Positions 14,206-28,481 of a stretch of DNA of 45,368 bases are shown here, in pieces. The notes under the pieces are model-generated. The model did not search any database. It was not told where the DNA came from and was given only the letters and a program-made list of their open reading frames with translations. Positions within the stretch are counted from its first letter, which is position 1. Each line of letters opens with the position of its first letter. Origin of the DNA: Deltaproteobacteria bacterium (GTDB taxonomy: Bacteria; Desulfobacterota; Syntrophia; Syntrophales; UBA8958); assembly GCA_026388335.1 (NCBI GenBank), contig JAPLJZ010000112.1, positions 1 through 45,368 on the forward strand, given 5' to 3'. Both the position numbers and the translations under genes were made by a program.

Positions 14206-14697
14206 ATGAGAAAAATGACCTTTACAATTGCAGCTATACTTTTTACCTTCTTTTTGTTCTCTTCAGCATTTGCCGCTGACTGGGGGAGGGGGCATGGCGG
14301 CGGGCCGCCCGGGAAAGAGGGAGACATCACGACCATTCCCGATCTTGAACTCACGGATGAACAGATATTGCAGATCAGGAATTTACGCGAGGCCCATCTG
14401 AGGGATATCAGGCCTCTTCAAGATAAGGTAAACTCGAAACGCAAAGAGCTGAAGGCACTTTGGTTGAAGACTACTCTTGATCAGGATAAGATAACGGCAT
14501 TACAAACAGAACTTGGGAAGATGCGGGATATGATGCAGGATAAGATGATTGATTACCGCCAAGCGATCTTCAGGATTATGACCCCAGAACAACAGAATAA
14601 ACTTGAGACCATAGGGAGACAACGGGGGTTCAGTCCCGGTCCTCGATGGGGAAAAAAGCGTCGGGATAATCAGGGGACAGCTAATCAGGGCAATTGA
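14206..14697 (+). CDS. Spy/CpxP-like periplasmic stress protein
   Basis: The 163-residue protein has a signal peptide (ending SSAFA at about residue 23). After a glycine-rich linker it is almost all helical and charged. It carries two LTxxQ-type motifs: LTDEQILQIRNLREAH near residue 48 and MTPEQQNKLETIG near residue 125. These define the Spy/CpxP/ZraP group, periplasmic chaperones or metal-responsive sensors. The C-terminus is rich in arginine, lysine and glycine. It is the first of three such proteins in the window and lies upstream of an ECF sigma factor, consistent with an envelope-stress regulon. No strong promoter is visible. Confidence 0.8.
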   Translation: MRKMTFTIAAILFTFFLFSSAFAADWGRGHGGGPPGKEGDITTIPDLELTDEQILQIRNLREAHLRDIRPLQDKVNSKRKELKALWLKTTLDQDKITALQTELGKMRDMMQDKMIDYRQAIFRIMTPEQQNKLETIGRQRGFSPGPRWGKKRRDNQGTANQGN

Positions 14698-14787
14698 TCA
14701 ACATTGCGAACATGAGAAGGAATGCCGGAGGTAAAATCACCAAAGAGGAATTCGGCTGGATCAAGTTCAATCTTGAATGGTGAAAAT

Positions 14788-15630
14788 ATGACATTGAACA
14801 ATTTCTCAGTCGACATGACTGAACGTTCCACTCAAAAGACAATTAAAAGAATCTTCTTCTCAGTATGGCCAGCATTGGCTGTTCTTTTCCTCTCCTTGAT
14901 CATCGCCTCTTTCTTTGCACAGTTCACATTTGTCGCCGGCTTGGAATCAGTTTGGAAAATCCTATTGCGCTTCCTGAGATTTTTATTAATATTGATTCTA
15001 CCCCTCCCTCTGCTCCCGCGAGCATGCGGAATCATGCAACATCTTCTGAATCGGAGAAGGCTTCGGTTGATCCAGATTCGCGAGGAACGCCATCAGACGC
15101 TCAATCTTTGGCAAAACTGGCTTATCCGACCTTTCCAGGGTATCGGTCTGTCTATGCTGATTGCCACCAAGCTGATCGCACTGCTGCAAATCTCCGCTAC
15201 CTCGCCCCTGGACTCCTCAATCATACTTCCACCTGCCCAATTCAATTCGGGACGATTCGTGACTGCAACAGTCATTGCCATCATGACATCCATTTTGCTC
15301 TCATTTTTTTGGTCTCTTGACGATCTAGGCATCCGTCATCATAATGAGAGAACGGGGGAAGTTAAGATGATCGGCAAGTACATCGGAGTCCTGCTGCCGA
15401 TTCTATTCGGCTTTTATGGCATGTTCAGCCTTTTTAAAAGTCATGAACACCTTTTGGCTATTCAATATATTGCTCAGATGGCTGTCGTCCTTTATCCACC
15501 GTTTTTGGTCATGACGGTTTTTCATGCCCTTTACATCGAGAAGTACGAAATTCTAATCCTGAAGAAGTTGAAGGTGGCGCCGCAAAACGTCCGGATCGAG
15601 GATCAAGAACGACATCTGACCGACCATTGA
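14788..15630 (+). CDS. Polytopic membrane protein of unknown function
   Basis: About 280 residues with roughly six hydrophobic segments (starting near PALAVLFLSLIIASFF, then FLRFLLILILPLPLL, and four more) and a charged C-terminus. The segment LNRRRLRLIQIREERHQT is strongly basic and probably cytoplasmic. No family is recognised. The ATG at 14788 has GGTGA six bases upstream; an in-frame ATG at 14722 would add 22 residues but its purine-rich sequence is too close. It sits between a Spy-like gene and the ECF sigma gene (36 bases before the latter) and may belong to the same stress module, but that is inference. Confidence 0.65.
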   Translation: MTLNNFSVDMTERSTQKTIKRIFFSVWPALAVLFLSLIIASFFAQFTFVAGLESVWKILLRFLRFLLILILPLPLLPRACGIMQHLLNRRRLRLIQIREERHQTLNLWQNWLIRPFQGIGLSMLIATKLIALLQISATSPLDSSIILPPAQFNSGRFVTATVIAIMTSILLSFFWSLDDLGIRHHNERTGEVKMIGKYIGVLLPILFGFYGMFSLFKSHEHLLAIQYIAQMAVVLYPPFLVMTVFHALYIEKYEILILKKLKVAPQNVRIEDQERHLTDH

Positions 15631-15665: not shown

Positions 15666-16256
15666 TTGACGGACGATAACGGTAAAATATCTTCGGATGA
15701 AGAACTCATGGGTAAGGTCGCCCAAGGTGACACGCAAGCATTTGAAATCCTGGTACACCGCCATCAGAAACGTATTCTTAATTTGATCTTCCGCTTCATC
15801 GGAGACCGAGAACAAGCAGAAGACGTGGCTCAAGATGTGTTTGTACGGGTATGGCAAGCAGCTAAAGAATACGAACCCAAGTCAAAATTCACCACATGGG
15901 TCTATCGCATTTCCGCCAATCTGTGCATAGACCTACAAAAAACGGTTCATTATAAACAGATTTTCGTATATCCACATTTTAATGCTGAACATCCCAACGA
16001 AAGCAATGAACTCTTTTCTTATTCCGATAACTCCCGTTCTCCAGAAGACCTTATGTTGGCCGCAGAAAAAAGCCGTACAATATCAGCCGCCATCCAGAAA
16101 CTGCCGTACAATCAGCGGATGGCCGTCATTCTGAAGAAATTTGAAGGCCTGTCTTATTCTGAAATCGCCAAGGTCTTAGGTTGTTCAGTATCTGCCGTTG
16201 AGTCCCTTCTCGTCCGAGCCAAAAAAAATCTCCGGGAAAAGTTGCTACCTCGTTAA
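15666..16256 (+). CDS. ECF-family RNA polymerase sigma factor
   Basis: The 196-residue protein has the two-domain ECF layout. Region 2 covers about residues 25-95, with GDREQAEDVAQDVFVRVW and TTWVYRISANLCID. Region 4 covers about 135-190, with LPYNQRMAVILKKFEGLSYSEIA and a helix-turn-helix ending in VESLLVRAKKNLR. This is the RpoE-like type, usually held by a membrane anti-sigma factor. The gene 71 bases downstream encodes exactly that. The start is a TTG with a weak ribosome site and is the only reasonable choice. The likely target is the downstream efflux operon plus its own promoter; no clear ECF promoter could be identified by eye. Confidence 0.92.
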   Translation: MTDDNGKISSDEELMGKVAQGDTQAFEILVHRHQKRILNLIFRFIGDREQAEDVAQDVFVRVWQAAKEYEPKSKFTTWVYRISANLCIDLQKTVHYKQIFVYPHFNAEHPNESNELFSYSDNSRSPEDLMLAAEKSRTISAAIQKLPYNQRMAVILKKFEGLSYSEIAKVLGCSVSAVESLLVRAKKNLREKLLPR

Positions 16257-16280
16257 AAAATAATCGCAGGTTTTTGGAAG

Positions 16281-16310
16281 ATTGATCGTTTAACTAAGTG
16301 AACGATCAAT
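16281..16310. promoter_or_regulatory. 10-bp perfect inverted repeat between sigma and anti-sigma genes
   Basis: ATTGATCGTT at 16281-16290 and AACGATCAAT at 16301-16310 are perfect inverted arms around a 10-base spacer, 18 bases before the anti-sigma start. It could be a dimer-protein operator or an RNA hairpin that tunes the ratio of sigma to downstream products. No T-run follows, so a simple terminator is unlikely. Confidence 0.55.
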
Positions 16311-16327
16311 GAGAATGGGGAATCAAT

Positions 16328-16822
16328 ATGAATTGCCGCACGATCCTCAAAATGTTTGCCGCATACCAGGACGGAGAACTCGACTCGTCAGAGCGAAGCC
16401 GGGTTGAGAGTCATCTGGAAAGCTGTCTCTCGTGCAGCAAATATTATGCAGAAACGGAAGGGGTCTGGCAAGCCCTGGACGGGATGCAGGAAATAGAGCC
16501 ATCCCCTGGCTTTTACAGGTCCATCTTCAAAAAGATCCATGCCCCTCCTCGTAAGAACCATTTCCAGAAATATCTTTCATGGATCATGGACTTTTTCCCG
16601 GCACCGGCGGTCGCAATTCCAGTATTGCTGATCTGTATTGTCTGTGGAGTGGCCATGGGAAACATCATCGGGAGTGGTTTGGGAATCGAGAAGAACTACA
16701 CAACTCATTCTCAGTCATTGACGAATGTAAATACAGTCGGCGTATTTTCTCCTATCCCTCCGGGTACCCTGGGGGATGGTTATTTGCGGTTGGCGGGCAT
16801 TTCGGAGGAACATAAGAAATGA
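16328..16822 (+). CDS. Anti-sigma factor with N-terminal zinc-finger (zf-HC2) and one membrane helix
   Basis: The first 45 residues match the zinc-binding anti-sigma domain: MNCRTI, AAYQDGELDSSER, then HLESCLSCSKYY with the H-x3-C-x2-C ligands. A transmembrane helix (AIPVLLICIVCGVAMG) lies near residues 95-112, leaving about 50 residues outside the membrane. It should bind the ECF sigma factor encoded just upstream and release it on envelope stress. Its stop overlaps the start of the Spy-like gene (ATGA). The length of 164 residues fits the family. Confidence 0.88.
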   Translation: MNCRTILKMFAAYQDGELDSSERSRVESHLESCLSCSKYYAETEGVWQALDGMQEIEPSPGFYRSIFKKIHAPPRKNHFQKYLSWIMDFFPAPAVAIPVLLICIVCGVAMGNIIGSGLGIEKNYTTHSQSLTNVNTVGVFSPIPPGTLGDGYLRLAGISEEHKK

Positions 16823-17310
16823 AAATTAAAGCATGGGTGTTCATTCTAATCTTATCTTTATTCATGAATGCATCCGTTCTGGCGACGGTGGGGTACCATT
16901 ACTATCGCAACACCTGCCTGACCCCATCTGCCCCCTGTCCACTCAACGGGGGAAACCATCATCTATACCAGTCTCTTGGCTTGTCTCATGCGCAATTGGC
17001 GCAAATGGAGCCCCTCTCCAAAACGTTTCATGCACGGATCGAGACATTGGGAGCGACAATGGAGGGGAAGAGAAATCTGCTGATCGATCTATTGGAACAT
17101 GAAGGAAGTGACTTAAGTAGCATTGAGGAAACACGCAAAGAAATAGCAGGAATTCAAGACACAATTCAAAAGGAAGTGATGATGCATATTATGCAAACAA
17201 AAAAAATTCTGAATCCCCAACAGCAGAAGCGTTTTTTTGAACTGCTGCGCGGCAGCTTGACCAGCGCCCGTCAGAGTTCAGCATTTCCCATAAGCGGAGG
17301 CAATAAATGA
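16819..17310 (+). CDS. Membrane-anchored Spy/CpxP-like (metal-resistance) periplasmic protein
   Basis: A 163-residue protein with an uncleaved or signal-type N-terminal helix (about residues 5-25). A mostly helical domain follows, with LGLSHAQLAQMEPLSKTFHARIE and LNPQQQKRFFELL, the paired LTxxQ-like repeats of the heavy-metal-resistance/Spy family. Two cysteines (CLTPSAPC) and a cluster of histidines (NHHLYQ) near residues 33-50 could bind metal. It is translationally coupled to both neighbours (ATGA at each end), so it is made together with the anti-sigma factor and the first permease. A role as the periplasmic sensor for the sigma/anti-sigma pair is plausible but inferred. Confidence 0.78.
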   Translation: MKIKAWVFILILSLFMNASVLATVGYHYYRNTCLTPSAPCPLNGGNHHLYQSLGLSHAQLAQMEPLSKTFHARIETLGATMEGKRNLLIDLLEHEGSDLSSIEETRKEIAGIQDTIQKEVMMHIMQTKKILNPQQQKRFFELLRGSLTSARQSSAFPISGGNK

Positions 17311-18557
17311 ATCTGCGTTATGTTTTCAAGGAACTTACCCACCAGAAGCGAAGAACGGTCATTTCCGTTCTTGGACTCTCCATTGGCATCGCCCTCTTCG
17401 TTATCCTTAACGCCCTGTCCTTGGCGTACCATGAGGCGGCCCGGGCGCCACTGAAAGAGGTCGGGGCTGACATCACGGTCCAGAGGCCTGGAAACGTGCC
17501 CGAGGAACTTGTGGGCGCCGTCTTCCCCTGTTCCGCCGTAACAATCGGGGAAGAAGAAATCGATGATATCAAAGAGATACCGGGCATCCAGGGAATTGGC
17601 AGGGCCGTTCTCCTGTGGATTTTCGACCCGAACCGGGCCTGGATTGTCATGGGAATCGAACAAAATAATCCGGTCGGACCATCGATTCTTAAAAACTTCA
17701 TCACGGCGGGGCGTTATTTCGAAACCGGAAAACCGGAGGTCCTCGTGGAAGCGGCCTACGCCCGTCAATTTGGCATCCGGCTTGGAGACCATGTTAACGT
17801 AGCCGGAAGATCATATCCTGTGGTCGGCCTGATCGATGCGTCCCACGCCTCCAAAATCGCCGTGGCCAATCTTTACCTGCCTCTGGCGGAGGCACAGGCC
17901 ATCGCGGCGGCATCAAAAAATTTGCGGTCCGTTTCCCCCTTTGCCGGAGAAGATGTCAACCTCCTCTTTATCAGGGCCGATCAGGATCGGATCACAGCCG
18001 TCGCCGCGGCTGTCAAAGGCATCCTCGGAGAAAAGGCCACCGTTGCCACCCCGGAGTCATTTCTGAAACTCCTGGGCAGTCTCTTTGCCCTGTCGGACAA
18101 ATTCACCTTGGCCGCCTCGATTATTGCCATGATTATCGCCATCCTCATTGCCTTCAAAACCATGGCGGGAAATGTCGCCGAGCGGGCCAGAGAGATCGGT
18201 GTTATGAAGGCTGTGGGCTGGACCCATCGTAATGTTACGATGCAACTCCTGGCGGAATCGGTCATCCAGGGTTTCGCCGCCGGGCTCCTGGGGCTCCTGA
18301 TCGCCCAAGCGGCCGCGTTCGCCCTGGGGTTCATGACCGTCAACATCCCCATTCCCTGGGAGATGAGCCCGACCCCCCATTTTCTCCCCGGTGGCGGCGA
18401 CCCCCTCTTTAAAACACTGCGCCTTCCCGTCCACATCCCCTGGTCCCTGGCGGCTTTTGCCCTACTCCTCTCCGTGATCATCGGGGGGCTGACGGGGGCG
18501 CTCTTGGGCAGACACATTTCCAAAATCAAACCTTCGGAGGTTTTAAGGCATGAATAA
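17307..18557 (+). CDS. MacB/FtsX-type ABC transporter permease 1
   Basis: The 416-residue protein has the MacB/LolC/FtsX topology: an N-terminal helix (about residues 18-40), a periplasmic domain of about 230 residues, and three C-terminal helices. The FtsX-type signature is seen in AREIGVMKAVGWTHRNV, and the end KIKPSEVLRHE is typical. It has no ATPase domain. It shares clear sequence with the second permease at 19629-20867, especially both ends, so the two arose by duplication. It overlaps the ATPase gene by eight bases. Such permeases do not move solutes through a channel but drive conformational work on periplasmic partners, as in MacB or LolCDE. Confidence 0.9.
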   Translation: MNLRYVFKELTHQKRRTVISVLGLSIGIALFVILNALSLAYHEAARAPLKEVGADITVQRPGNVPEELVGAVFPCSAVTIGEEEIDDIKEIPGIQGIGRAVLLWIFDPNRAWIVMGIEQNNPVGPSILKNFITAGRYFETGKPEVLVEAAYARQFGIRLGDHVNVAGRSYPVVGLIDASHASKIAVANLYLPLAEAQAIAAASKNLRSVSPFAGEDVNLLFIRADQDRITAVAAAVKGILGEKATVATPESFLKLLGSLFALSDKFTLAASIIAMIIAILIAFKTMAGNVAERAREIGVMKAVGWTHRNVTMQLLAESVIQGFAAGLLGLLIAQAAAFALGFMTVNIPIPWEMSPTPHFLPGGGDPLFKTLRLPVHIPWSLAAFALLLSVIIGGLTGALLGRHISKIKPSEVLRHE

Positions 18558-19218
18558 ATTGGATATTCTGGTCGGCGTCGATCTGACCAAAACATACGGC
18601 GATCTAACCGTCGTCAAGGGGGTCTCCCTGGCCGTCCGGGAAGGCGAGTTCGTTTCCCTGGTCGGCAAATCCGGCTGCGGCAAGACTACGCTACTTTCCA
18701 TTTTGTCAGGATTGGAGCATCCCACCCACGGGCAGGCAGTCCTTAACGGCAAAAATATCACCGACGCCTCGGAGGACGAACTGGCCCTCTTCCGCCGGGA
18801 GAACGTCGGCTTTATCTTCCAGTCCTTCAATCTGATCCCAACACTCTCAGCCTGGGAGAATGTGGCGCTGCCTCTTTTCCCTGTTCAAATGACTGAAGCG
18901 GAGCGTCGACGGCGAGCAACGGAACTCCTTGACCAAATGGAACTGGCGCACCGCCTGGAACATCTGCCTGCCGCCCTTTCCGGGGGAGAGAAACAGCGGG
19001 TCGCTATTGCCCGCTCCCTGATCAATCACCCCAAGATCGTTTTCGCCGACGAACCGACTGGCAATCTGGACACGGCTACAGGCGATGCCATTATGGCGAT
19101 CCTGAACCAGTTGCATCAGCAGCAGGGCATGACCATCCTGATGGTCACCCATGAACCGGAACTGGCCAAAACGGCCGATCGCGTCCTGCGCATGCAGGAT
19201 GGGGAGGTATTGTCATGA
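18550..19218 (+). CDS. LolD/MacB-type ABC transporter ATP-binding protein
   Basis: A 222-residue stand-alone ATPase with all motifs: Walker A GKSGCGKTT, Q-loop FIFQSFNLIP, signature LSGGEKQR, Walker B IVFADEPTGNLD and switch VTHEPE. This subgroup powers FtsX-type permeases. It sits between two related permeases with no second ATPase, so a heteromeric complex (two permeases and an ATPase dimer), as in LolCDE, is likely. It overlaps both neighbours: eight bases with permease 1, ATGA with the small thioredoxin-fold gene. Confidence 0.92.
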   Translation: MNKLDILVGVDLTKTYGDLTVVKGVSLAVREGEFVSLVGKSGCGKTTLLSILSGLEHPTHGQAVLNGKNITDASEDELALFRRENVGFIFQSFNLIPTLSAWENVALPLFPVQMTEAERRRRATELLDQMELAHRLEHLPAALSGGEKQRVAIARSLINHPKIVFADEPTGNLDTATGDAIMAILNQLHQQQGMTILMVTHEPELAKTADRVLRMQDGEVLS

Positions 19219-19622
19219 AAAAAAAGATCTTATGCGGCTTGATCCTGCTATTAATTATGTGGATTCCGACAAATATTCCGGCAGCTCCAGCGGTTTCAGT
19301 GGAGATCCTCTACATGAGCCACGGCCCCCTGATGCCAACGGTGAAAGAGATCCAGAATCTCTGCAATCATTACGGAAAGAAGCTTAACGTCTCCTGGCAT
19401 GACTTTGAAACAACGGACGGGGAAGCGTTCATGGCCCGTAAGGGCATCCGCCAGCATGTTCCTCTGATTATCTGGATCAACGGCAAGTCCACCCTGAAGG
19501 TAAAGGGTAAAGATATTTCCTTCGTCGGTTTTCCGACCGGATCGGGACCCGCTTTCTTCCAGGGAAAATGGACCATGGATGATCTGCGCGGGGCGTTGGA
19601 TCTGGCTACCGGTCAAAAGTGA
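19215..19622 (+). CDS. Small secreted thioredoxin-fold-like protein lacking the CxxC motif
   Basis: The 135-residue protein has a signal peptide (about residues 1-23). A compact alpha/beta domain follows. Strand VSVEILYMSHGP, a helix, strand KLNVSWHDF, then HVPLIIWINGK with a proline in the place of the cis-proline of thioredoxins. The usual active-site CxxC would fall near YMSHGPLMPT, which has no cysteine; the only mature cysteine is in LCNHYG. So it is probably not an oxidoreductase. It lies between the ATPase and the second permease, with ATGA overlap upstream and six bases downstream. It is likely a periplasmic partner of the ABC complex. The fold assignment is by pattern only. Confidence 0.6.
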   Translation: MKKKILCGLILLLIMWIPTNIPAAPAVSVEILYMSHGPLMPTVKEIQNLCNHYGKKLNVSWHDFETTDGEAFMARKGIRQHVPLIIWINGKSTLKVKGKDISFVGFPTGSGPAFFQGKWTMDDLRGALDLATGQK

Positions 19623-19628
19623 GGTCAT

Positions 19629-20867
19629 ATGAATTATGCTTATATCTTGAAGGAACTGCGCCATCATCGTCACCGGACGCTGGTCAACATTCTGGGGATT
19701 GCTGTGGGGATTGCCCTCTTTGTGTCCATTAACGCCGTCTCGACGGCCTACCAGCAAGCCGTGAGCCTCCCCTTCAAAAATCTGGGGGCGGATCTCGTGG
19801 TCCAGCGGGCGGAAAAGCGCGCCGTGGACTCATCACAGGCCGGTCCCTCCATGCGGGGAATACGTCTTCCTTTTTCAAATCAGCTTCTTTCCGCTGATGA
19901 TCTCGATAAGCTCCGCATCATGCCCGGTATCGGCGCCATGGCCGGATCGCTTCTCCTCTGGGATTTCGACCGGGGCGGCTTCCGGACGATCATGGGTGTA
20001 GATCTTTCCCAACCGAGCCTGGGGCCGGTGCATATTAAAGAATGGCTGGTTAAAGGGCGTTTTCCGGATAAAAAGGGCGAGGTTATCCTGGAAAAGCACT
20101 ACGCCAAGTTTCACAACACGCAATTGGGCGACCAGTTTACCATCGGCAGCCGGTCTTTTCTCGTCGTGGGGCTTCTGGAGATCCGGGAAGGCGCCCAGAT
20201 TGCTTCGGCGAACATCTACCTGCCTTTGGCCGACGCCCAGGACCTGATGGGCGATGAATCCAAAAGTGTGAATCTCGTTTATCTCCGCTTGCAGAACCCG
20301 TCCCGCCTGAACCAGACGAAAACAGAGATTATGCAGGCCATGCCGGGAATTTCCGTGGCGAGTTCGGACGCCATCCTCGAAGTTATGGGAGGCGTTTCCC
20401 GGATTTCCGACCAATTTTCCTTGGTCGTTTCTCTGGTCGCCTTGGCCGGAGCCGTCTTTCTGATCATTAAAACCATGCTGGGAAACCTCGTGGAACGCTC
20501 CCGCGAAATCGGTATTCTGAAGGCCGTGGGCTGGACCGGCGGCGATGTGCAGAAGCAACTCATGGGAGAGGTTTTTCTTCAATCCATGATGGGGGGGATC
20601 GTGGGGATCGCCGCCGGATATCTCATCTCTTATCTGCTAGGTTATCTTGCTATTCCGGTCACAACCCCCTGGGAGGTCAACCTTTTGCCCGCCTTTGCCA
20701 AAGAGACCGGGGCGGCTGCCCAGACGATCCGCCTGCCCGTCAGCTTCTCTGCCGGCTTGACCGCCGCCGCCCTGGCCCTTTCCCTCCTTGCAGGCGGCCT
20801 GGCAAGCTATTTCATGGGGAGGCGCATGGCAAAGATGAAACCAACCGATATCCTTAGGCGATTATAA
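19629..20867 (+). CDS. MacB/FtsX-type ABC transporter permease 2
   Basis: A 412-residue paralogue of the first permease. Both start MN.....KEL.H...RT with a shared IGIALFV...AVS stretch, and both have REIG.(L/M)KAVGWT near residue 290 and end in KP(S/T)..LR. Topology is again one N-terminal helix, a periplasmic domain and three C-terminal helices, without an ATPase domain. The periplasmic domains differ more, suggesting distinct partners. The start lies six bases after the thioredoxin-like gene. The TolC gene follows after ten bases, so the ABC part and the RND part appear to be one transcript. Confidence 0.9.
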   Translation: MNYAYILKELRHHRHRTLVNILGIAVGIALFVSINAVSTAYQQAVSLPFKNLGADLVVQRAEKRAVDSSQAGPSMRGIRLPFSNQLLSADDLDKLRIMPGIGAMAGSLLLWDFDRGGFRTIMGVDLSQPSLGPVHIKEWLVKGRFPDKKGEVILEKHYAKFHNTQLGDQFTIGSRSFLVVGLLEIREGAQIASANIYLPLADAQDLMGDESKSVNLVYLRLQNPSRLNQTKTEIMQAMPGISVASSDAILEVMGGVSRISDQFSLVVSLVALAGAVFLIIKTMLGNLVERSREIGILKAVGWTGGDVQKQLMGEVFLQSMMGGIVGIAAGYLISYLLGYLAIPVTTPWEVNLLPAFAKETGAAAQTIRLPVSFSAGLTAAALALSLLAGGLASYFMGRRMAKMKPTDILRRL

Positions 20868-20877
20868 TTGACGATTT

Positions 20878-22254
20878 ATGAAAAGTATATCCTTAAAAAC
20901 ATTTATGATGGCGCTTTTATTCTTCTGTATGGGCCATGCTATGTTGGAGTACGCACCTGTGTTAGCCCAAACATCTCCCGCAAAGTCGTCAACAACAAGC
21001 GGACAATCAAGCGAACCTCTCTCCCTGAAAGGATGTATCAGTAAGGCTTTACAGGCAAATCCGTCCCTTGCCGAGGCGCGCCTAGGCGTGAGCGCCGCAG
21101 AAAAAGGCATAGACAGCGCTTGGGGAAATCATCTGCCAAAGCTTTCTCTTGATGGGAATTTTACCCAGCGGCAAGATCCCTGGCCCTATATCCCTGCCCA
21201 ATCGAACATCATCGGGCCGCATTTCAGCGATAATTTCGCCTCCTGGGGAGTGGTAATGAGTTTACCCATCTACAAGGGAGGACAGATCTCCAACGGCGTC
21301 GAACTGGCCAAAATCCGCAAAACTCTTCAGGAGGAATACCAGGCACTGAACCGTAACGACATCATTGCCAATACCGTCAATACGTACAACAAGCTCCTGC
21401 AATTCCAGAAACTCCGGGAAGCCTCGCAATCATCCGTAACCGCCCTGGAGAATCAACAAAAGAACTCACAACTTCTCTTCGATGTAGGGCGTATTGCCAA
21501 GGCCGACCTGTTGAAGGTGGAGGTGCAGCTTGCCAATGAGCAGCAGCGGCTCTTATCGATTGATGAGGGACTCGCCAATCTGTCGGGGATGCTCCGTTAT
21601 CTAATGGGGGAGTCCCTGCGCGGCCCGGCGGCAGTACCAGCGCAGTCTGACCGCCTGATCATGCCTGAATTAATTACCGACTTCGATCAGGGTCTTGTCA
21701 GTGCGCAAAAAAAGCGCCCGGAGTACCGGATGGCCGTGACGGGAGTTCAGGAAGCAGGTGTCAACCGTAATCTCGCCCGGGGCAAGCTGCTGCCGACCGT
21801 CCAGGCTTTTGCCGGCTACATGGATCAGTACGGTTTCACCCCCGGATACCAGGAAGCCAACTGGTTTACCGGGGTCAACCTGAGTATGCCGCTGTTTGAA
21901 AAATCCTTCTATGACGACTTGGCCAAAGAGCGCATTTTGGAAGAAAAAGCCGGCAAGCGTCTCCAGGCTGCAGATAATCAGCTCCGCCTTGATTTGCAGA
22001 CGGCTATCTCATCGCTGATGGAGAGTAGAAGCCGGGTCCTGACCGATCAAAAGGTTATTGACCATGCGAATGAATCATTTCGCATCGAGCAAAAAAAATA
22101 CACCAGTGGCGCCGGGGCAGTCGTAGATCTTCTTTTTGCTCAGTCGGCCTATGTGACGGCAGTGGCCAATTATTCGCAGGCCCTGTTTGACTATAACGCC
22201 GCCATTGTTGCTTATCGAAAAGTGACAGGCACTCTGGAGGAATATCTACAATGA
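20878..22254 (+). CDS. TolC-family outer membrane efflux protein
   Basis: A 458-residue outer membrane factor with a signal peptide (ending VLAQT, near residue 32). Two repeated helical/beta halves follow. Family features include LSLKGCISKALQANPSLAEARLGV at the start of the mature protein and the second-half repeat KKRPEYRMAVTGVQEA. As a trimer it forms the outer-membrane channel and long periplasmic tunnel used by RND, MFS or ABC pumps. It is followed without a gap by the membrane fusion protein (ATGA). It could serve both the RND pump and the ABC complex encoded just upstream. Confidence 0.9.
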   Translation: MKSISLKTFMMALLFFCMGHAMLEYAPVLAQTSPAKSSTTSGQSSEPLSLKGCISKALQANPSLAEARLGVSAAEKGIDSAWGNHLPKLSLDGNFTQRQDPWPYIPAQSNIIGPHFSDNFASWGVVMSLPIYKGGQISNGVELAKIRKTLQEEYQALNRNDIIANTVNTYNKLLQFQKLREASQSSVTALENQQKNSQLLFDVGRIAKADLLKVEVQLANEQQRLLSIDEGLANLSGMLRYLMGESLRGPAAVPAQSDRLIMPELITDFDQGLVSAQKKRPEYRMAVTGVQEAGVNRNLARGKLLPTVQAFAGYMDQYGFTPGYQEANWFTGVNLSMPLFEKSFYDDLAKERILEEKAGKRLQAADNQLRLDLQTAISSLMESRSRVLTDQKVIDHANESFRIEQKKYTSGAGAVVDLLFAQSAYVTAVANYSQALFDYNAAIVAYRKVTGTLEEYLQ

Positions 22255-23387
22255 AAAAAAAGCTTATTGTTCTGGGAGTAATCATCGCTCTTATGGCCGG
22301 CGCTTTTCTGCTGGTCAAAAAGAAACAGCATGACGTAGCCTCCCTCCCCAAGCCGGCGGTGAATCTGCCGACCATCCAGACAACTGTAGCGACACAGGGA
22401 AATCTGGAAGTCACAACCCATTATCTGGGGGTGATTGAACCATATACGCGGAGCGATCTTTCGGCACGGATTTCAGGGAATATTCTTAATATTTACAAGC
22501 GTGAGGGCGATTCCGTCCGTTCTGGCGAGCTGGTGGCGAGCATTGATGACCGGGAATTGGCGGATCGGTCCATAGCAGTCAATGCGGAGGCGCTGGCTAC
22601 ACAGCAGAAAATTGCCGGGGCCAAGAGCGCATACGAGACGCAGAAGTCGTCCTATGAGCGGGATGTGGAGCTCTATAGGGAAGGTGCGATTTCCAAAGAA
22701 GCGCTGGAGCGATCCCGAGCAGCCTTTGACGGCGCGCAGGCGACAGTTTCCTCTTTCCAGGAAAGCCTGCAAGGGATGAAAAAAAGCGCCTCCGCAGCGC
22801 GGACGCAAGCCGGCTACGCGAAAATCCACGCCCCTTTTGCCGGTATGGTCAGCAAACGGTGGAGCGACCCGGGAGACCTGGCTGTCCCGGGCAAACCGAT
22901 TTTGACAATCGAAAAGTTGTCCCCGTTTAAAGTTGTGGTTCAAATCCCCCAAGAGGAAATCAACCGGGTGAAGAAAGGGACAAAGGTTTATCTATCGAAT
23001 GGCGAGCAGCGCCAAAGCGCCACGGTTGACCGTGTCTATCCGGCCTTGGGCAGAAATCTGCTGGGGGTGATGGAAATCGTTCTTGCCAACCGCCCTTTCC
23101 AACTCCCCTCCGGATCCACCGTGGGCATAGATCTGGTCGTGAGTCAGGTCACCGGCATCCTCGTTCCGGAAAACGCCGTTGTGAAGACTGACCAAGGGGT
23201 CTTTATCTATGTCCTTAATAAAAATATCATCAGTGTCAAGAAGGTCAGCCTGCTGGGAACGAGCGCCAACCGATCCGCCGTTAGCGGTCCGATCAGTGCC
23301 GGCGAAGCCGTTGCTGTCGGACAGGAAAACCGGCTCCTCAGCCTGAAAGATGGTAGCGTCGTCAGTCCCGCCGGGGTCAAGCCATGA
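22251..23387 (+). CDS. RND efflux pump periplasmic adaptor (membrane fusion protein)
   Basis: A 378-residue adaptor with an N-terminal membrane anchor/signal (residues 5-20). The first half-lipoyl region is SGNILNIYKREGDSVRSGELVASID, then comes a long helical hairpin (about residues 95-185), and the second half-lipoyl region is AGYAKIHAPFAGMVSKRWSD. Beta-barrel and membrane-proximal domains follow. It links TolC to the RND pump. It overlaps both neighbours by ATGA, giving a fixed tolC-adaptor-pump order. No metal-binding motifs typical of CusB are evident. Confidence 0.9.
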   Translation: MKKKLIVLGVIIALMAGAFLLVKKKQHDVASLPKPAVNLPTIQTTVATQGNLEVTTHYLGVIEPYTRSDLSARISGNILNIYKREGDSVRSGELVASIDDRELADRSIAVNAEALATQQKIAGAKSAYETQKSSYERDVELYREGAISKEALERSRAAFDGAQATVSSFQESLQGMKKSASAARTQAGYAKIHAPFAGMVSKRWSDPGDLAVPGKPILTIEKLSPFKVVVQIPQEEINRVKKGTKVYLSNGEQRQSATVDRVYPALGRNLLGVMEIVLANRPFQLPSGSTVGIDLVVSQVTGILVPENAVVKTDQGVFIYVLNKNIISVKKVSLLGTSANRSAVSGPISAGEAVAVGQENRLLSLKDGSVVSPAGVKP

Positions 23388-26300
23388 ATTTTGTCGCCCG
23401 GTACATCAAAAGACCGCATCTGGTCCTCTCCATCGTCTTGCTCCTGTCGGCGGTAGGCGTCATCGGCTATATAAAAATGCCCTTCAATCTCTTCCCCGAC
23501 GTGGACCGCCCGCAGATCAGCGTCATCACCGTTATGCCCGGAGCCGCGGCGGCCGATGTTGAGGCTGACATCTCCCGGACGATTGAAAAGGAACTCTCCA
23601 CCATTGACCTTGTGCGCCGGGTGACCTCCACCTCCAAGGATGAGGTTTCCGTTGTCCAGGCCGAATTTGAATATCAGAAAGGTCTGGAAGCAGCGGCCAC
23701 CGATGTGGCCAATGCCCTGAGCAAAATCAGCGCCCGGCTGCCCGTTAATATCCGTCCACCCCAGATTTTCAAGATCAGCCAGGCCACACAACCGACCATG
23801 ACGATTGCCCTTTCCCCCCAGCCGGGCTATCCTGCCGACCTGCGCAAGATCCGGGAAATTGCCGACAACCAGATCAAGGAGGACCTCCTGCGCGTCCCGG
23901 GGATTGCCAATGTGGAAGTCTTCGGCGCCTGGCAGCCGGAAGTGCAAGTGGTAATCGACCCGGACCGGCTGCAGCGTTTCAGTCTGAACCTGAACGACGT
24001 AATGAGCGCCCTGGCTGCACAGAATCAGAATATCCCCCAGGGCCTCATTATCCGCAAAGAAGGACAGTATATCTTCAAAACGGAAGGGCAGGTCAAGAAA
24101 CCGGAAGAACTAAACAGTCTGGTCATCGGCCGGAAAGAGAGCGGAGCGATTCATCTACGCGATGTGGCTGTTATCGAACCGGGTGTGCAGGAACCCCAGT
24201 CGGCCTACCGGGGAAATGGCAAGGAGGCGGTCGGCCTCAATATCCTGCGCGGACAGAACGGCCACACCCTGGACACGATTCAGGCTGCGGAAGGCGCCCT
24301 GCCCCAGCTTCGGTCCAAATATCCTTTCATTCATTTCGAGATCAGCTATACCCAAAAGGAACTGATCACGCTGAGCGTGGACAACATGCTGGAGGCACTC
24401 CGGGACGCCATCCTCATTACCGTTCTGGTCATTTTTTTCTTCCTCGGCAACCTGCGCACCATGTCCCTGGTCGCTATTTCCATCCCCTTTACCTATCTGA
24501 TTACCTTTGCCTTCATGTGGCTGTTCGATTTCGAGTTTCATATGGTCACGCTGACGGGCGTTATCCTGGCCGTGGGCATGCTTCTCGATGATGCGATCGT
24601 CGTCATCGAAAATATTGAACGTCATTACCAGGAAAGCGGGAAAGACCTGGCTGACGTGGTCGCCGGCAGTACCGAAGAGGTCATGCTGGCCATTTTTTCC
24701 GGGACCTACGCCACCGTGGTCGTCCTTGTGCCGATCATCTTCATCGGTGGCTACGTGCAGATGGTTCTGCGGCCGCTGACGCTGTCACTTAGCATTGCCC
24801 TTATTGCCTCCTATATCGTTTCGGTTACCATCATTCCGATCCTTGCCCCGGCCATCCTAAGAAAAACGCTTCAGCCTAACCGGATGGAAACCTGGGTCAA
24901 AAGGGGAAGTGACCGCTTTGTCAATGCCATACGGGATTTCTTTGTGAACACACTCGACGTCGCCCTCCGACATCGCATCCTCTTCATTCTGGCGGCCTTT
25001 GTCATTCTGATGCTCACCAGCAGATTTGCGCGACCGTTGGTTGGTCAGAGTCTTCAGCCGCCCATGGATACGGGCATCATCAAGATCAACTTTGAGGCGG
25101 ACAGTAATTCCTCTCTGGCCCAGTCTCATACGATCCTGCAGCAGATGGAGGCGGTCATCAAAAAGCAGAAAGGGCTGGTTTCCATGAGTTCTACCCTGGG
25201 ATCCGAGCCATCGGTTGTCTCCTTCGGCAGCGGTAAAAATCCTCAACAGGGGAGTGTCAATATCAATATGGTGGACCGGTATCACCGTAAGGAATCCATG
25301 TGGCAGATCGAAAAGGTTCTGCGCGACGAATTTCTGAAAATACCGGGACTAAAATACGTGGATGTTTTCGATTACGGTGCTACACCCGTTTCGACTATAC
25401 GGGCCACGGTGGATGTCATGGCAACCGGACCGGACACCAAGGTCCTCTATACGATTGGCAAGGATATCGAACGCCGCATGGCTGATGTCGGCGGTCTGAA
25501 GTCGGTGTCCCTGAGTTGGACTGCCGATAAGAAAGAGGTCAACTTCATCGCCGACCGTGAGAGATGCGCGTTCTATGGCATCTCTCCCCGGGAGATCGCC
25601 GTGCAAGTACAGGCAGCAGTCCAGGGTGGGATTGCTTCCGTTTTCCGTATCCCCGGTGAGGACGGCTTTCTGATCCGCGTCCGCTACCAGGAGACTTCCC
25701 GGAACAGCATCTCCGGCATGACGGTCCTGAATGTTCACACGCCGGCAGGAGATGTCCCGCTTTCAGCTTTGGGGCGCATCACCATGTCCTATGTGCCCAT
25801 GCTCCTCACCCGGCAGAACCTGCAGAACAGTATCGATGTCCTGGGCCAACGCGAGAAAGCACCGGTTTCACATATTATGGACAACGTCCAGAAGGCTATG
25901 GCTGGCATCAAGCTTCCCCCTGGCTATAAGATCACCCAGGAGGGAGACGCCAAACAAGGTAAGGAATCCTTCGACGCACTCCTGTCCGCAATGGCCATCG
26001 GGATGGTTCTCCTTTATTTTTCTCTGGTCCCGGCTTTCCGGTCCTTCGTCCACCCCCTGACAATTATGTCGGCTATTCCCCTGGCCTTAATCGGCGCCAT
26101 GTGGTCGCTCCTGATCGCGGGAAAGCAGCAGTCCCTCTCGGCCTTCATGGGGATCATCCTCCTGGCGGGCATCGTCGTCAAAAACTCAATTCTCCTCATC
26201 GATTTTATTGAAATGGCCAAGGAACAGGGGTCCTCTACCCTGGAGGCCCTGCGGGACAGTGTCAGGATCAGAACCCGGCCAATTCTGATGACTGCTTTCG

Positions 26301-26494
26301 CTACCGCTGTAGGCATGCTTCCCATTGCCCTGGAGCGGGCCATTGGTCTGGAGCGCTTGTCTCCTCTGGCGATTGTCGCCATTGGCGGCCTGCTGGTTTC
26401 CACATTTTTAACACTCCTCTATGTGCCAATTTTTTATACAATTTTCGAGGATATCACTAACTGGTTTTCACGTTTATTGTCCAAACCTAAGTGA
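23384..26494 (+). CDS. RND family efflux transporter, inner membrane pump
   Basis: A 1036-residue pump of usual AcrB-like length. The proton-relay pair is present in GMLLDDAIVVIEN (transmembrane helix 4), and the helix-10 lysine in GIVVKNSILLIDF. These fit hydrophobic/amphiphile exporters rather than the CusA metal-ion group, so organic compounds are the likelier substrate. The two large periplasmic loops follow helices 1 and 7 as expected. The start overlaps the adaptor stop (ATGA). It ends the run of coupled genes that starts with the anti-sigma factor. No terminator hairpin is seen after it, so read-through into the chrA-like gene 69 bases later is possible. Confidence 0.92.
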   Translation: MNFVARYIKRPHLVLSIVLLLSAVGVIGYIKMPFNLFPDVDRPQISVITVMPGAAAADVEADISRTIEKELSTIDLVRRVTSTSKDEVSVVQAEFEYQKGLEAAATDVANALSKISARLPVNIRPPQIFKISQATQPTMTIALSPQPGYPADLRKIREIADNQIKEDLLRVPGIANVEVFGAWQPEVQVVIDPDRLQRFSLNLNDVMSALAAQNQNIPQGLIIRKEGQYIFKTEGQVKKPEELNSLVIGRKESGAIHLRDVAVIEPGVQEPQSAYRGNGKEAVGLNILRGQNGHTLDTIQAAEGALPQLRSKYPFIHFEISYTQKELITLSVDNMLEALRDAILITVLVIFFFLGNLRTMSLVAISIPFTYLITFAFMWLFDFEFHMVTLTGVILAVGMLLDDAIVVIENIERHYQESGKDLADVVAGSTEEVMLAIFSGTYATVVVLVPIIFIGGYVQMVLRPLTLSLSIALIASYIVSVTIIPILAPAILRKTLQPNRMETWVKRGSDRFVNAIRDFFVNTLDVALRHRILFILAAFVILMLTSRFARPLVGQSLQPPMDTGIIKINFEADSNSSLAQSHTILQQMEAVIKKQKGLVSMSSTLGSEPSVVSFGSGKNPQQGSVNINMVDRYHRKESMWQIEKVLRDEFLKIPGLKYVDVFDYGATPVSTIRATVDVMATGPDTKVLYTIGKDIERRMADVGGLKSVSLSWTADKKEVNFIADRERCAFYGISPREIAVQVQAAVQGGIASVFRIPGEDGFLIRVRYQETSRNSISGMTVLNVHTPAGDVPLSALGRITMSYVPMLLTRQNLQNSIDVLGQREKAPVSHIMDNVQKAMAGIKLPPGYKITQEGDAKQGKESFDALLSAMAIGMVLLYFSLVPAFRSFVHPLTIMSAIPLALIGAMWSLLIAGKQQSLSAFMGIILLAGIVVKNSILLIDFIEMAKEQGSSTLEALRDSVRIRTRPILMTAFATAVGMLPIALERAIGLERLSPLAIVAIGGLLVSTFLTLLYVPIFYTIFEDITNWFSRLLSKPK

Positions 26495-26563: not shown

Positions 26564-27721
26564 TTGGATAAGACACCATCAATTAAAGAACTCTTTCTAT
26601 CCTTCCTGAAGCTCGGATTGACAGCCTTCGGCGGTCCGGCCATGGTTTCATATATCCGCCTTATGGCTGTTGAGGAAAAGCAGTGGTTGGATAATTCATC
26701 CTTTCGTGCCGGGGTTGCTCTCTGCCAGTCCATACCAGGGGCTACAGCCATACAGGCCGCTGCTTATGTAGGACTCAGGGTTCATGGAATATCCGGAGCA
26801 TTGGCTGCCTATAGTGGTTTTGGATTGCCTGCTTTTATTTTTATGTTGCTTCTCTCTGTTTTATACGGCCAATTTGACAGGTTCCCCAAATTTATCTCCT
26901 TGTTTAGCGGTCTTCAGGTGATCGTAGTTGCAATCATTTTTAACGCCACCTATTCATTTGGCAGGAACATCACAAACAATTACAAGAAAATTCTCGTTGC
27001 TCTTTTAGCTGCCATTTCATTTTGGTTCGGTGTAAGCCCTTTTATTGTTATTGTTGGTGCTGGCATTCTCGGTATGGCCCTTTTAAAAGGAGGTGCTTCA
27101 AACACCGAGGTCAACTCCGAAACAAGAGAAACACCTTGGTATGCCAAGCAGATTATTGCTCTCTTGGCCGCTTTTCTTATCTGCTTTACCGGGCTCTATT
27201 TCCTAAGCGCGATCCTCTTTAATCTGGCGGCTGTTATGCTCAAAATAGATATCTTCGCCTTCGGAGGAGGGTTTGCGTCTCTTCCGCTCATGCTTCACGA
27301 AATTGTCATTAACAGGGGATGGCTGGATAGTAAGACCTTTATGGACGGAATAGCCCTTGGTCAGATAACCCCAGGTCCCATTATTATTACGGCAACTTAT
27401 GTGGGCTATATGGTTCATGGAATACCAGGTGCGATTGTGGCGACAATCGCTATATTTACGCCTTCATTTTTTATGGTGATCACCGTCGCACCGTTTTTTG
27501 ATCGGCTGAAAAATTCGATATATTTTATGAGAGCTATAGACGGAATCTTCGCCTCTTTCGTAGGACTCCTCTTTTATGTTTGTATGAAATTCACGATGGT
27601 CATTCCATGGGATATATTAAGGATTCTATTATGTTTTGCTGCATTAACCGCTTTGCTTCGAAAAGTTGACATCCTTTATATAGTGCCAATAGGGGCCGTT
27701 ATTTCTATGTTTGTTTTGTAA
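26564..27721 (+). CDS. chrA: ChrA-family (chromate/anion) transporter
   Basis: A 385-residue membrane protein with two homologous halves of the CHR type. The first begins FLKLGLTAFGGPAMVSYIR, with CQSIPGATAIQAAAYVG; the second has FAFGGGFASLPLMLHE and LGQITPGPIIITATYVGY. Family members export chromate or related oxyanions, but many have never been tested on chromate, so the substrate is open. The start is a TTG preceded by CGGAGGCG. The gene is more AT-rich than the RND gene upstream, hinting at separate acquisition. Presence near Spy-like and efflux genes suggests a stress island. Confidence 0.85.
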   Translation: MDKTPSIKELFLSFLKLGLTAFGGPAMVSYIRLMAVEEKQWLDNSSFRAGVALCQSIPGATAIQAAAYVGLRVHGISGALAAYSGFGLPAFIFMLLLSVLYGQFDRFPKFISLFSGLQVIVVAIIFNATYSFGRNITNNYKKILVALLAAISFWFGVSPFIVIVGAGILGMALLKGGASNTEVNSETRETPWYAKQIIALLAAFLICFTGLYFLSAILFNLAAVMLKIDIFAFGGGFASLPLMLHEIVINRGWLDSKTFMDGIALGQITPGPIIITATYVGYMVHGIPGAIVATIAIFTPSFFMVITVAPFFDRLKNSIYFMRAIDGIFASFVGLLFYVCMKFTMVIPWDILRILLCFAALTALLRKVDILYIVPIGAVISMFVL

Positions 27722-27932: not shown

Positions 27933-28472
27933 CTACATTCCAGGTTTCTGACGGCCTCCCTTGCCTCCGCCAAGACCACGTTGATCATCCAAACCAGATC
28001 CCATCTGCCTATTGGTGGTATCACTCGAACCACGCACAGTACGCTTCCACATTGTCTTTTGTTCCGGTGTTAGCATTTGAAAAACGGTCTGCATATATTG
28101 TGTTCTCTTATCGTTCATCATTCCTTGAATCAATTGCATGTTCGCAGACGGACTTTCATTAATTGATTTCCCACTGCTTTGGCCTGCAGCATATTGGCTC
28201 TTTTGAAGTTCCCGTTCAAGATTTATCTTCTCTTGAAGAGCTTTAATCTCTTGAATCAGGTTATCTCTAAGGGTGGCGATCTTTGATGCCTGGTCTGTGG
28301 TTAGGTTAAAGTCCAATAAGAGAATATCCGGTATTGTCCCCAGAATATGAAATTCCTCTGGTTGATATGCTTCTGGTCTATCATCCCCCCGACTACGCCC
28401 ACGCTGAGTGCAGGATATTGATATTATTGCCACTGCTACCAATAATATCAATATCAATGCTTTTTGTCTCAT
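27933..28472 (-). CDS. Spy/CpxP-like periplasmic lipoprotein
   Basis: About 179 residues. The N-terminal hydrophobic stretch ends AIISISCTQ, with a cysteine suited to lipid attachment although the lipobox is not perfect. The body is helical with LTTDQASKIATLRDNLIQEI near residue 55 and MLTPEQKTMWKR near residue 140, the paired LTxxQ motifs. The tail is rich in glycine, arginine and glutamine. This is the third Spy-like protein in the window. An overlapping GTG at 28478 is an alternative start. It follows the TPR protein gene after nine bases and is probably co-transcribed with it. Confidence 0.75.
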   Translation of the reverse strand: MRQKALILILLVAVAIISISCTQRGRSRGDDRPEAYQPEEFHILGTIPDILLLDFNLTTDQASKIATLRDNLIQEIKALQEKINLERELQKSQYAAGQSSGKSINESPSANMQLIQGMMNDKRTQYMQTVFQMLTPEQKTMWKRTVRGSSDTTNRQMGSGLDDQRGLGGGKGGRQKPGM

Positions 28473-28481
28473 GATCACGTC

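Follow-up and report, generated by a model that had tools for sequence, protein, structure and literature searches.

Gene content of the locus

The locus described here is a run of ten genes on the forward strand of contig JAPLJZ010000112.1 (assembly GCA_026388335.1) from a Deltaproteobacteria bacterium of the order Syntrophales; the whole 45,368-nucleotide stretch that was analysed is referred to as the window. Ten open reading frames (ORFs) encode, in this order, an extracytoplasmic function (ECF) sigma factor, an anti-sigma factor, a sensor, an ATP-binding cassette (ABC) permease, an ABC ATPase, a thioredoxin-like protein, a second permease, a TolC-family protein, a periplasmic adaptor and a resistance-nodulation-division (RND) pump (Table 1). 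Based on sequence comparison, we propose with moderate confidence that a CnrYXH-like switch controls this run as a modular export operon, in which the ABC and RND proteins would form separate machines under shared control. Pfam and NCBIfam searches gave firm family assignments for nine of the ten genes. The genome carrying the window (4.06 Mb) is 98.9% complete and 4.9% contaminated, and the nearest named relatives of its ABC genes belong to Syntrophus/Syntrophaceae metagenome-assembled genomes.

Order, strand and position of the ten genes agree with a preliminary description of this DNA, which had also set every junction at no more than 10 bases. The latter holds from the anti-sigma gene to the RND gene, where consecutive junctions measure -4, -4, -8, -4, +6, +10, -4 and -4 bases, but not for the sigma and anti-sigma genes, which are 71 bases apart; this is the only long junction of the run and it contains a promoter-like element. 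Scans of the window for sigma-70 promoters and terminators yielded signals little above those of shuffled sequence. A chance arrangement or an assembly artefact was considered and ruled out, given that the order from anti-sigma to RND is identical in two further loci (L075 and L077; L and G numbers denote loci and genomes, respectively).

Table 1. Features of the ten-gene run and its immediate neighbours
Feature	Coordinates	Strand	Evidence and remarks
ECF sigma factor gene, TTG start, 196 amino acids	15666..16256	+	Sigma70_r2 3e-18, r4_2 1.5e-18
Promoter-like element CGCAGGTTTTTGGAAGATTGATCGTTTAA: -35-like CGCAGG, 16 bases, -10-like CGTTTAA	16265..16293	+	ECF type, in sigma/anti-sigma gap
Anti-sigma factor, N-terminal zf-HC2, one transmembrane (TM) segment (residues 92-110)	16328..16822	+	zf-HC2 1.7e-10; hydropathy
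CnrX-type sensor: N-terminal anchor (7-25) and periplasmic Metal_resist/LTXXQ helical domain	16819..17310	+	Metal_resist 2.9e-7
ABC permease 1, MacB_PCD + FtsX, 4 TM	17307..18557	+	Pfam/NCBIfam, hydropathy
ABC ATPase, LolD/YbbA/FtsE/MacB type	18550..19218	+	ABC_tran 1.2e-36; LolD 237 bits, below 307.75 cut-off
Secreted thioredoxin-fold protein	19215..19622	+	Model pLDDT 87; Z 9.8
ABC permease 2, MacB_PCD + FtsX, 4 TM	19629..20867	+	Pfam/NCBIfam, hydropathy; best PDB match MacB
TolC-family outer membrane factor	20878..22254	+	OEP 5e-56; TIGR01844
RND periplasmic adaptor (HlyD/RND_mfp)	22251..23387	+	TIGR01730 153.6 bits, above cut-off
RND pump, HAE-1-like	23384..26494	+	ACR_tran 6e-214; nearest solved structure MdtB
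Multi-TM protein without family; accessory	14722..15630	+	Hydropathy; recurrent neighbour of similar sigma genes
Chromate-transporter-family gene (PF02417)	26564..27721	+	69 bases downstream of run; recurrent neighbour, candidate operon member

A putative CnrX-type sensor is encoded beside the sigma/anti-sigma pair

The third product of the run had been taken for a Spy-like periplasmic chaperone. A profile built from ten relatives and compared with the PDB placed CnrX/NccX first (E 2e-4 to 1e-3), followed by Spy (0.005) and ZraP (0.04). In a fold search with the predicted model (mean predicted local distance difference test score, pLDDT, 71; 80-90 across residues 51-140), the eight best-ranked structures were all CnrX (Z 11.1-11.9 over 103-106 residues), with STV, ZraP, CpxP and Spy ranking below (Z approximately 9.6-10.1). 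Z values of helical bundles are weak when they stand alone, but here profile and fold concur. Hydropathy indicates a hydrophobic anchor at the N-terminus, and inspection by eye revealed no signal-cleavage motif there. CnrX likewise possesses a membrane anchor that is not cleaved, whereas Spy is a soluble protein with a cleaved signal. The protein is therefore better described as a putative CnrX-type membrane-anchored sensor than as a Spy chaperone, with the sensing role suggested by its predicted fold and by gene order. Collectively, an ECF sigma factor, a transmembrane anti-sigma factor and a membrane-anchored CnrX-fold protein are encoded together, which is the composition of a CnrYXH-type switch.

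A conserved promoter-like element precedes the anti-sigma gene

In the gaps between sigma and anti-sigma genes we spotted by eye an element with the consensus CGCAGG-N-TTT-N12-CGTYTAA. Exact copies are present in eight loci (the window, L019, L139, L140, L076, L073, L075 and L077), each directly 5' of the anti-sigma gene; the spacer and the leader differ from locus to locus. For comparison, we used a set of 155 genomes of the class, comprising the window genome and 154 others. The exact element occurs in nine of the 155 and only once in the window genome; in eight of the nine it lies before an anti-sigma gene and in the ninth (G093) elsewhere, and the reversed control gave one match. Sigma orthologues with 59-65% identity are encoded by five other genomes of the class, and all six genomes with an orthologue at 1e-50 carry the element (Fisher p 1.6e-9, relatedness ignored); in G147 the orthologue lies at a contig end. 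At L073, L075 and L077 the anti-sigma gene has no sigma gene next to it and is nevertheless preceded by the element. Sigma control, as claimed in the preliminary description, thus finds support in a conserved candidate ECF-type element directly before the anti-sigma gene.

A scan for ECF motifs of the GGAAC/TGAAC type gave no match, and the element was absent upstream of the ABC copies of the genus and of the RND paralogue. When up to two mismatches were allowed, the window genome contained five matches and its reversed control four; since these numbers are similar, we claim no regulon beyond the element's own operon. The switch seems to serve this operon alone and is probably a single-target, autoregulated ECF switch, as judged from sequence.

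The -10-like sequence shares bases with a perfect 10-base inverted repeat (ATTGATCGTT / AACGATCAAT) at positions 16281-16310. The repeat is missing from the seven other element loci and could be a chance occurrence or an operator. Separately, genes resembling restriction-modification genes (named by eye) occupy the expected sigma position upstream of the anti-sigma gene at L073:5752-9053 and L075:14171-16635, where the element is kept.

ABC cassette and RND trio occur together and apart

The full run from anti-sigma to RND was found in two of the 154 other genomes (L075 and L077), which belong to another family. Both loci retain the element and a permease 2/TolC junction of 9 bases, but have no sigma gene in place. 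This recurrence bears out the preliminary description as far as a coupled ABC and RND operon is concerned. Within the class, the thioredoxin-like gene is present in 13 of 155 genomes and an RND gene of at least 80% identity in five; four genomes possess both, fused in three of them. Conversely, nine of the 13 cassette genomes have the ABC cassette without this RND gene. In G061 the cassette is on one contig and the RND trio, preceded by a TetR gene, on another, and G104 encodes an RND protein of 87% identity without any cassette match in the genome, on a contig that begins inside the TolC gene. The window genome itself illustrates both situations: a second ABC cassette (L016; permease 1 95% identical) lies behind another Spy-like gene without RND, and a second RND trio (L017; RND 77%) lies behind a TetR gene without ABC genes. 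RND trios free of ABC genes are also found at L147, likewise under a TetR gene, and at L060. No adaptor or TolC gene adjoins the ABC cassette at L003, L004, L005, L006, L007, L008, L016, L019, L076 or L078. Since cassette and trio are each found alone, the parts are modules.

Sequence relationships mark a border between the two. Window DNA is 90% identical to the ABC copies of the genus over positions 17248-20883 only, and because this similarity stops at the end of permease 2 we place a module border there. In the permease 1 tree the window groups with the genus copies (97/99), whereas in the RND tree its pump groups with L075, L077 and L146 (support 100/99). The different relatives in the two trees are compatible both with descent plus duplication and with module exchange.

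What lies behind the switch also varies. A close relative of the switch is followed by the ABC cassette alone at L019, and at L140 the contig ends inside permease 1; at L139 it precedes a second ABC pair, a LolA_like protein, a barrel-like protein and a chromate transporter. A divergent version precedes only TolC, adaptor and RND genes at L060 (RND 71%, sigma 33%) and the ABC cassette at L132-L134, to which L133 and L134 add the second ABC pair and LolA_like gene. The barrel-like outer membrane protein accompanies this second set at L134 and L139. Taken together, the ABC and RND parts resemble interchangeable units behind a common switch more than components of a single machine. Their shared control is well supported at the sequence level; a shared conduit is not.

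As a side observation, the second ABC pair with LolA_like (and the barrel in L134 and L139) is possibly another envelope lipid export system.

The ABC cassette encodes a thioredoxin-fold protein

Both permeases are of the four-TM MacB_PCD + FtsX kind (about 36% identical to each other) and are encoded with a LolD-type ATPase, as in type VII ABC transporters. Among NCBIfam models the ATPase is nearest LolD and permease 2 nearest LolCE, but the scores do not place the cassette in LolCDE: the permeases reach 28 and 52 of 362 bits (LolCE) and the ATPase 237 of 308 (LolD), and the housekeeping LolC/E is encoded elsewhere in the genome. Nor does it qualify as MacAB-TolC, as the ATPase is separate and the adaptor scores 63.5 of 342 bits against MacA.

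The protein encoded between ATPase and permease 2 had been called thioredoxin-like. The fold is upheld by a confident model, for which thioredoxins head the list of matches (Z 8-9.8; best a designed thioredoxin, 83 residues, 1.8 A), but neither a CxxC motif nor a named family could be assigned: Pfam, NCBIfam and PDB sequence searches and a plasmid search gave no match, and HGPL occupies the CxxC position in 14 of 14 aligned sequences. Invariant motifs in the alignment are YxxHGPL and FQGxW. Distant four-gene cassettes of identical content exist in other families of the phylum (L135 and L136), and since the four genes stay together there, the protein appears to travel with the permeases. Gene order and analogy make it a probable periplasmic partner of a type VII ABC transporter. 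The thioredoxin-like ORF of G144 (L075:10483-11025) is about 44 residues longer at its N-terminus, and the additional part resembles a translated interspersed repeat.

The pump resembles multidrug rather than metal exporters

Encoded with adaptor and TolC genes, the RND protein falls within the hydrophobe/amphiphile efflux (HAE-1) class, although as a divergent member, since its score does not reach the NCBI subfamily cut-off of 1250. It reaches 605 bits against RND_permease_2 compared with 413.6 against the CusA/CzcA heavy-metal (HME-RND) class, for which the cut-off is 701.45. Its TM4 region reads LDDAIVVIEN, containing an AcrB-like Asp pair.

Neighbouring genes

The multi-TM protein gene upstream of the run recurs beside similar sigma genes in L060, L076, L132, L133 and L139, and the chromate-transporter-family gene is likewise found downstream in L019, L008, L075, L077, L139 and L004. 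Two further LTXXQ/Spy-like genes flank the run, at 14206-14697 and at 27933-28478 (minus strand; weak match), giving three in the window.

A model of shared control and its alternatives

In our model, the membrane-bound zinc-finger anti-sigma factor would hold the ECF sigma factor at rest, and the CnrX-type protein beside it would act as a periplasmic sensor. A periplasmic signal, perhaps a metal, a change in redox state or a compound that acts on membranes, would release the sigma factor, and the freed sigma factor would read the element in the sigma/anti-sigma gap to produce one message covering anti-sigma, sensor, ABC cassette and RND trio. With the anti-sigma gene transcribed in its own operon, as the conserved element and the gene overlaps suggest, the switch would shut itself off. 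By analogy with LolCDE-LolA and YbbAP-TesA, the cassette may work as a self-contained type VII transporter whose hydrophobic substrate is pulled out of the inner membrane and passed on to the thioredoxin-fold protein. Adaptor, TolC protein and HAE-1-like pump would constitute an ordinary tripartite RND efflux pump. The two machines would have the switch in common but not a physical conduit, and the fused operon may have arisen when two modules, each also found on its own, were joined.

The closest frame is cnrYXH-cnrCBA(T) of Cupriavidus metallidurans, which also combines an ECF sigma factor, a membrane anti-sigma factor, a CnrX-fold sensor and a tripartite RND system in one locus. CnrH-dependent promoters precede cnrY and cnrC (PMC9045368), so that a sigma-dependent promoter stands before the anti-sigma gene where the candidate element lies here. 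Differences are the gene order (Y-X-H compared with sigma-anti-sigma-sensor), the zf-HC2 anti-sigma factor, the largely lost metal site, the HAE-1-like pump and the four-gene ABC cassette between switch and pump. The earlier statement that no described system has this content was thus too strong, as cnrYXH-cnrCBA supplies the frame, to which an ABC cassette and a different RND class are added. A literature search, with subscription papers mostly outside its reach, found no description of a sigma-controlled ABC and RND operon.

LolCDE-LolA and YbbAP-TesA are precedents for a type VII ABC transporter that works with a periplasmic partner (PMC12646458). YbbAP-TesA shares with the cassette a MacB/FtsX-type permease, a LolD-like ATPase and an adjacent secreted partner and needs neither adaptor nor TolC (PMC12646458); here, however, there are two different permeases, and the partner is a thioredoxin-fold protein without CxxC instead of a hydrolase. 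LolCDE-LolA has the same heteromeric permease-ATPase-permease order, but the partner here is not LolA. MacAB-TolC is similar in permease domains, but the cassette has two permeases and lacks a MacA orthologue. MdtABC/AcrAB-type HAE-1 pumps match the RND, adaptor and TolC trio, with MdtB as best PDB match, but the trio here is predicted to be sigma-controlled and is fused behind an ABC cassette.

Several observations weigh against the model of shared control by a CnrYXH-like switch. G141 and G144 carry the element but give no sigma match at 1e-50. Moreover, no copy of the element turned up at the loci of the divergent sigma subtype (L060, L132-L134 and L006), which limits the promoter rule to the close group. 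ABC and RND genes (at least 80% identity) co-occur above expectation, in four of the five RND genomes (relatedness ignored), so that a functional link between the machines is conceivable. The partner role of the thioredoxin-fold protein is read from gene order and analogy. Finally, CnrX binds metal through H42, H46, E63, H119 and M123, of which one is aligned and invariant in the sensor (H119, equivalent to H123 here) while the other four are replaced; another His that is invariant, H71, falls close to where E63 would be. With only one ligand kept, a metal is no more than a candidate signal.

A tentative alternative, which overlaps our model and differs from it in substrate, is that a Lol-like ABC system trafficking lipoproteins or lipids repairs the envelope while the RND pump removes the stressor, as complementary arms of one response. 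The affinities of ATPase and permease 2 to LolD and LolCE agree with this, as do the LolA_like proteins behind similar switches in L133, L134 and L139 and the barrel-like proteins in L134 and L139. On the other hand, the scores fall far below the Lol equivalog cut-offs, true Lol is encoded elsewhere and the window operon has no LolA gene. More speculatively, and in our view doubtful, this could be one more type VII ABC system, a two-permease transporter whose periplasmic substrate receiver is a thioredoxin-fold protein without redox activity. In the fused operon the receiver would pass toxic lipids or hydrophobic compounds extracted from the membrane to the RND pump expressed along with it, and the CnrX-type sensor in control would have changed from sensing metal to sensing membrane or redox stress.

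It is unlikely that the locus is a heavy-metal resistance operon, that is, a true Cnr/Ncc relative exporting nickel, cobalt or another metal. The CnrX-like sensor, which has invariant His residues at 71 and 123 as well as two Cys in the close group, and the chromate-transporter-family neighbour would suit this idea, but four of five metal ligands are not conserved, and the pump sides with multidrug exporters (414 against the 701 cut-off for CusA/CzcA; AcrB-like Asp pair). Still less probable are two merely abutting transcription units, a sigma-controlled ABC unit followed by an independently promoted RND unit. The relatives of the RND trio at L017 and L147, which stand alone with their own TetR genes, and the confinement of the 90% DNA identity to the ABC part would be expected in this case; however, the 10-base permease 2/TolC gap leaves no intergenic room, no sigma-70-like promoter rose clearly above shuffled sequence near 20800-20880, and the junction is retained at 9 bases in L075 and L077.

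The single integrated machine of the preliminary description, with a dual-permease ABC transporter and RND pump sharing one adaptor and one TolC, is the least probable reading: joint operons with like junctions exist in three genomes of two families and, according to a MacAB-TolC review, MacB-type permeases elsewhere use adaptor and TolC (PMC5985334), but most genomes have no adaptor or TolC gene adjoining the cassette, the adaptor is of the RND_mfp type and far below the MacA cut-off (63.5 versus 342), and the RND trio is complete alone in L017, L060 and L147. Unlinked occurrence, which had been named as grounds for refutation, is observed and refutes an obligate joint machine but not co-regulation.

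Implications

Under the model of shared control, this group of bacteria would provide natural cargo swaps under one sigma/anti-sigma/CnrX-type switch: the ABC cassette alone, a second ABC pair with LolA-like and barrel-like proteins, and the cassette with the RND trio, with RND alone under the divergent sigma factor as a further swap. The switch offers a precise candidate promoter element for testing. The locus also ties an unnamed thioredoxin-fold family to a type VII ABC transporter with two permeases. In transporters of this class it is the periplasmic partner that defines function, and only a small number of such partners are known.

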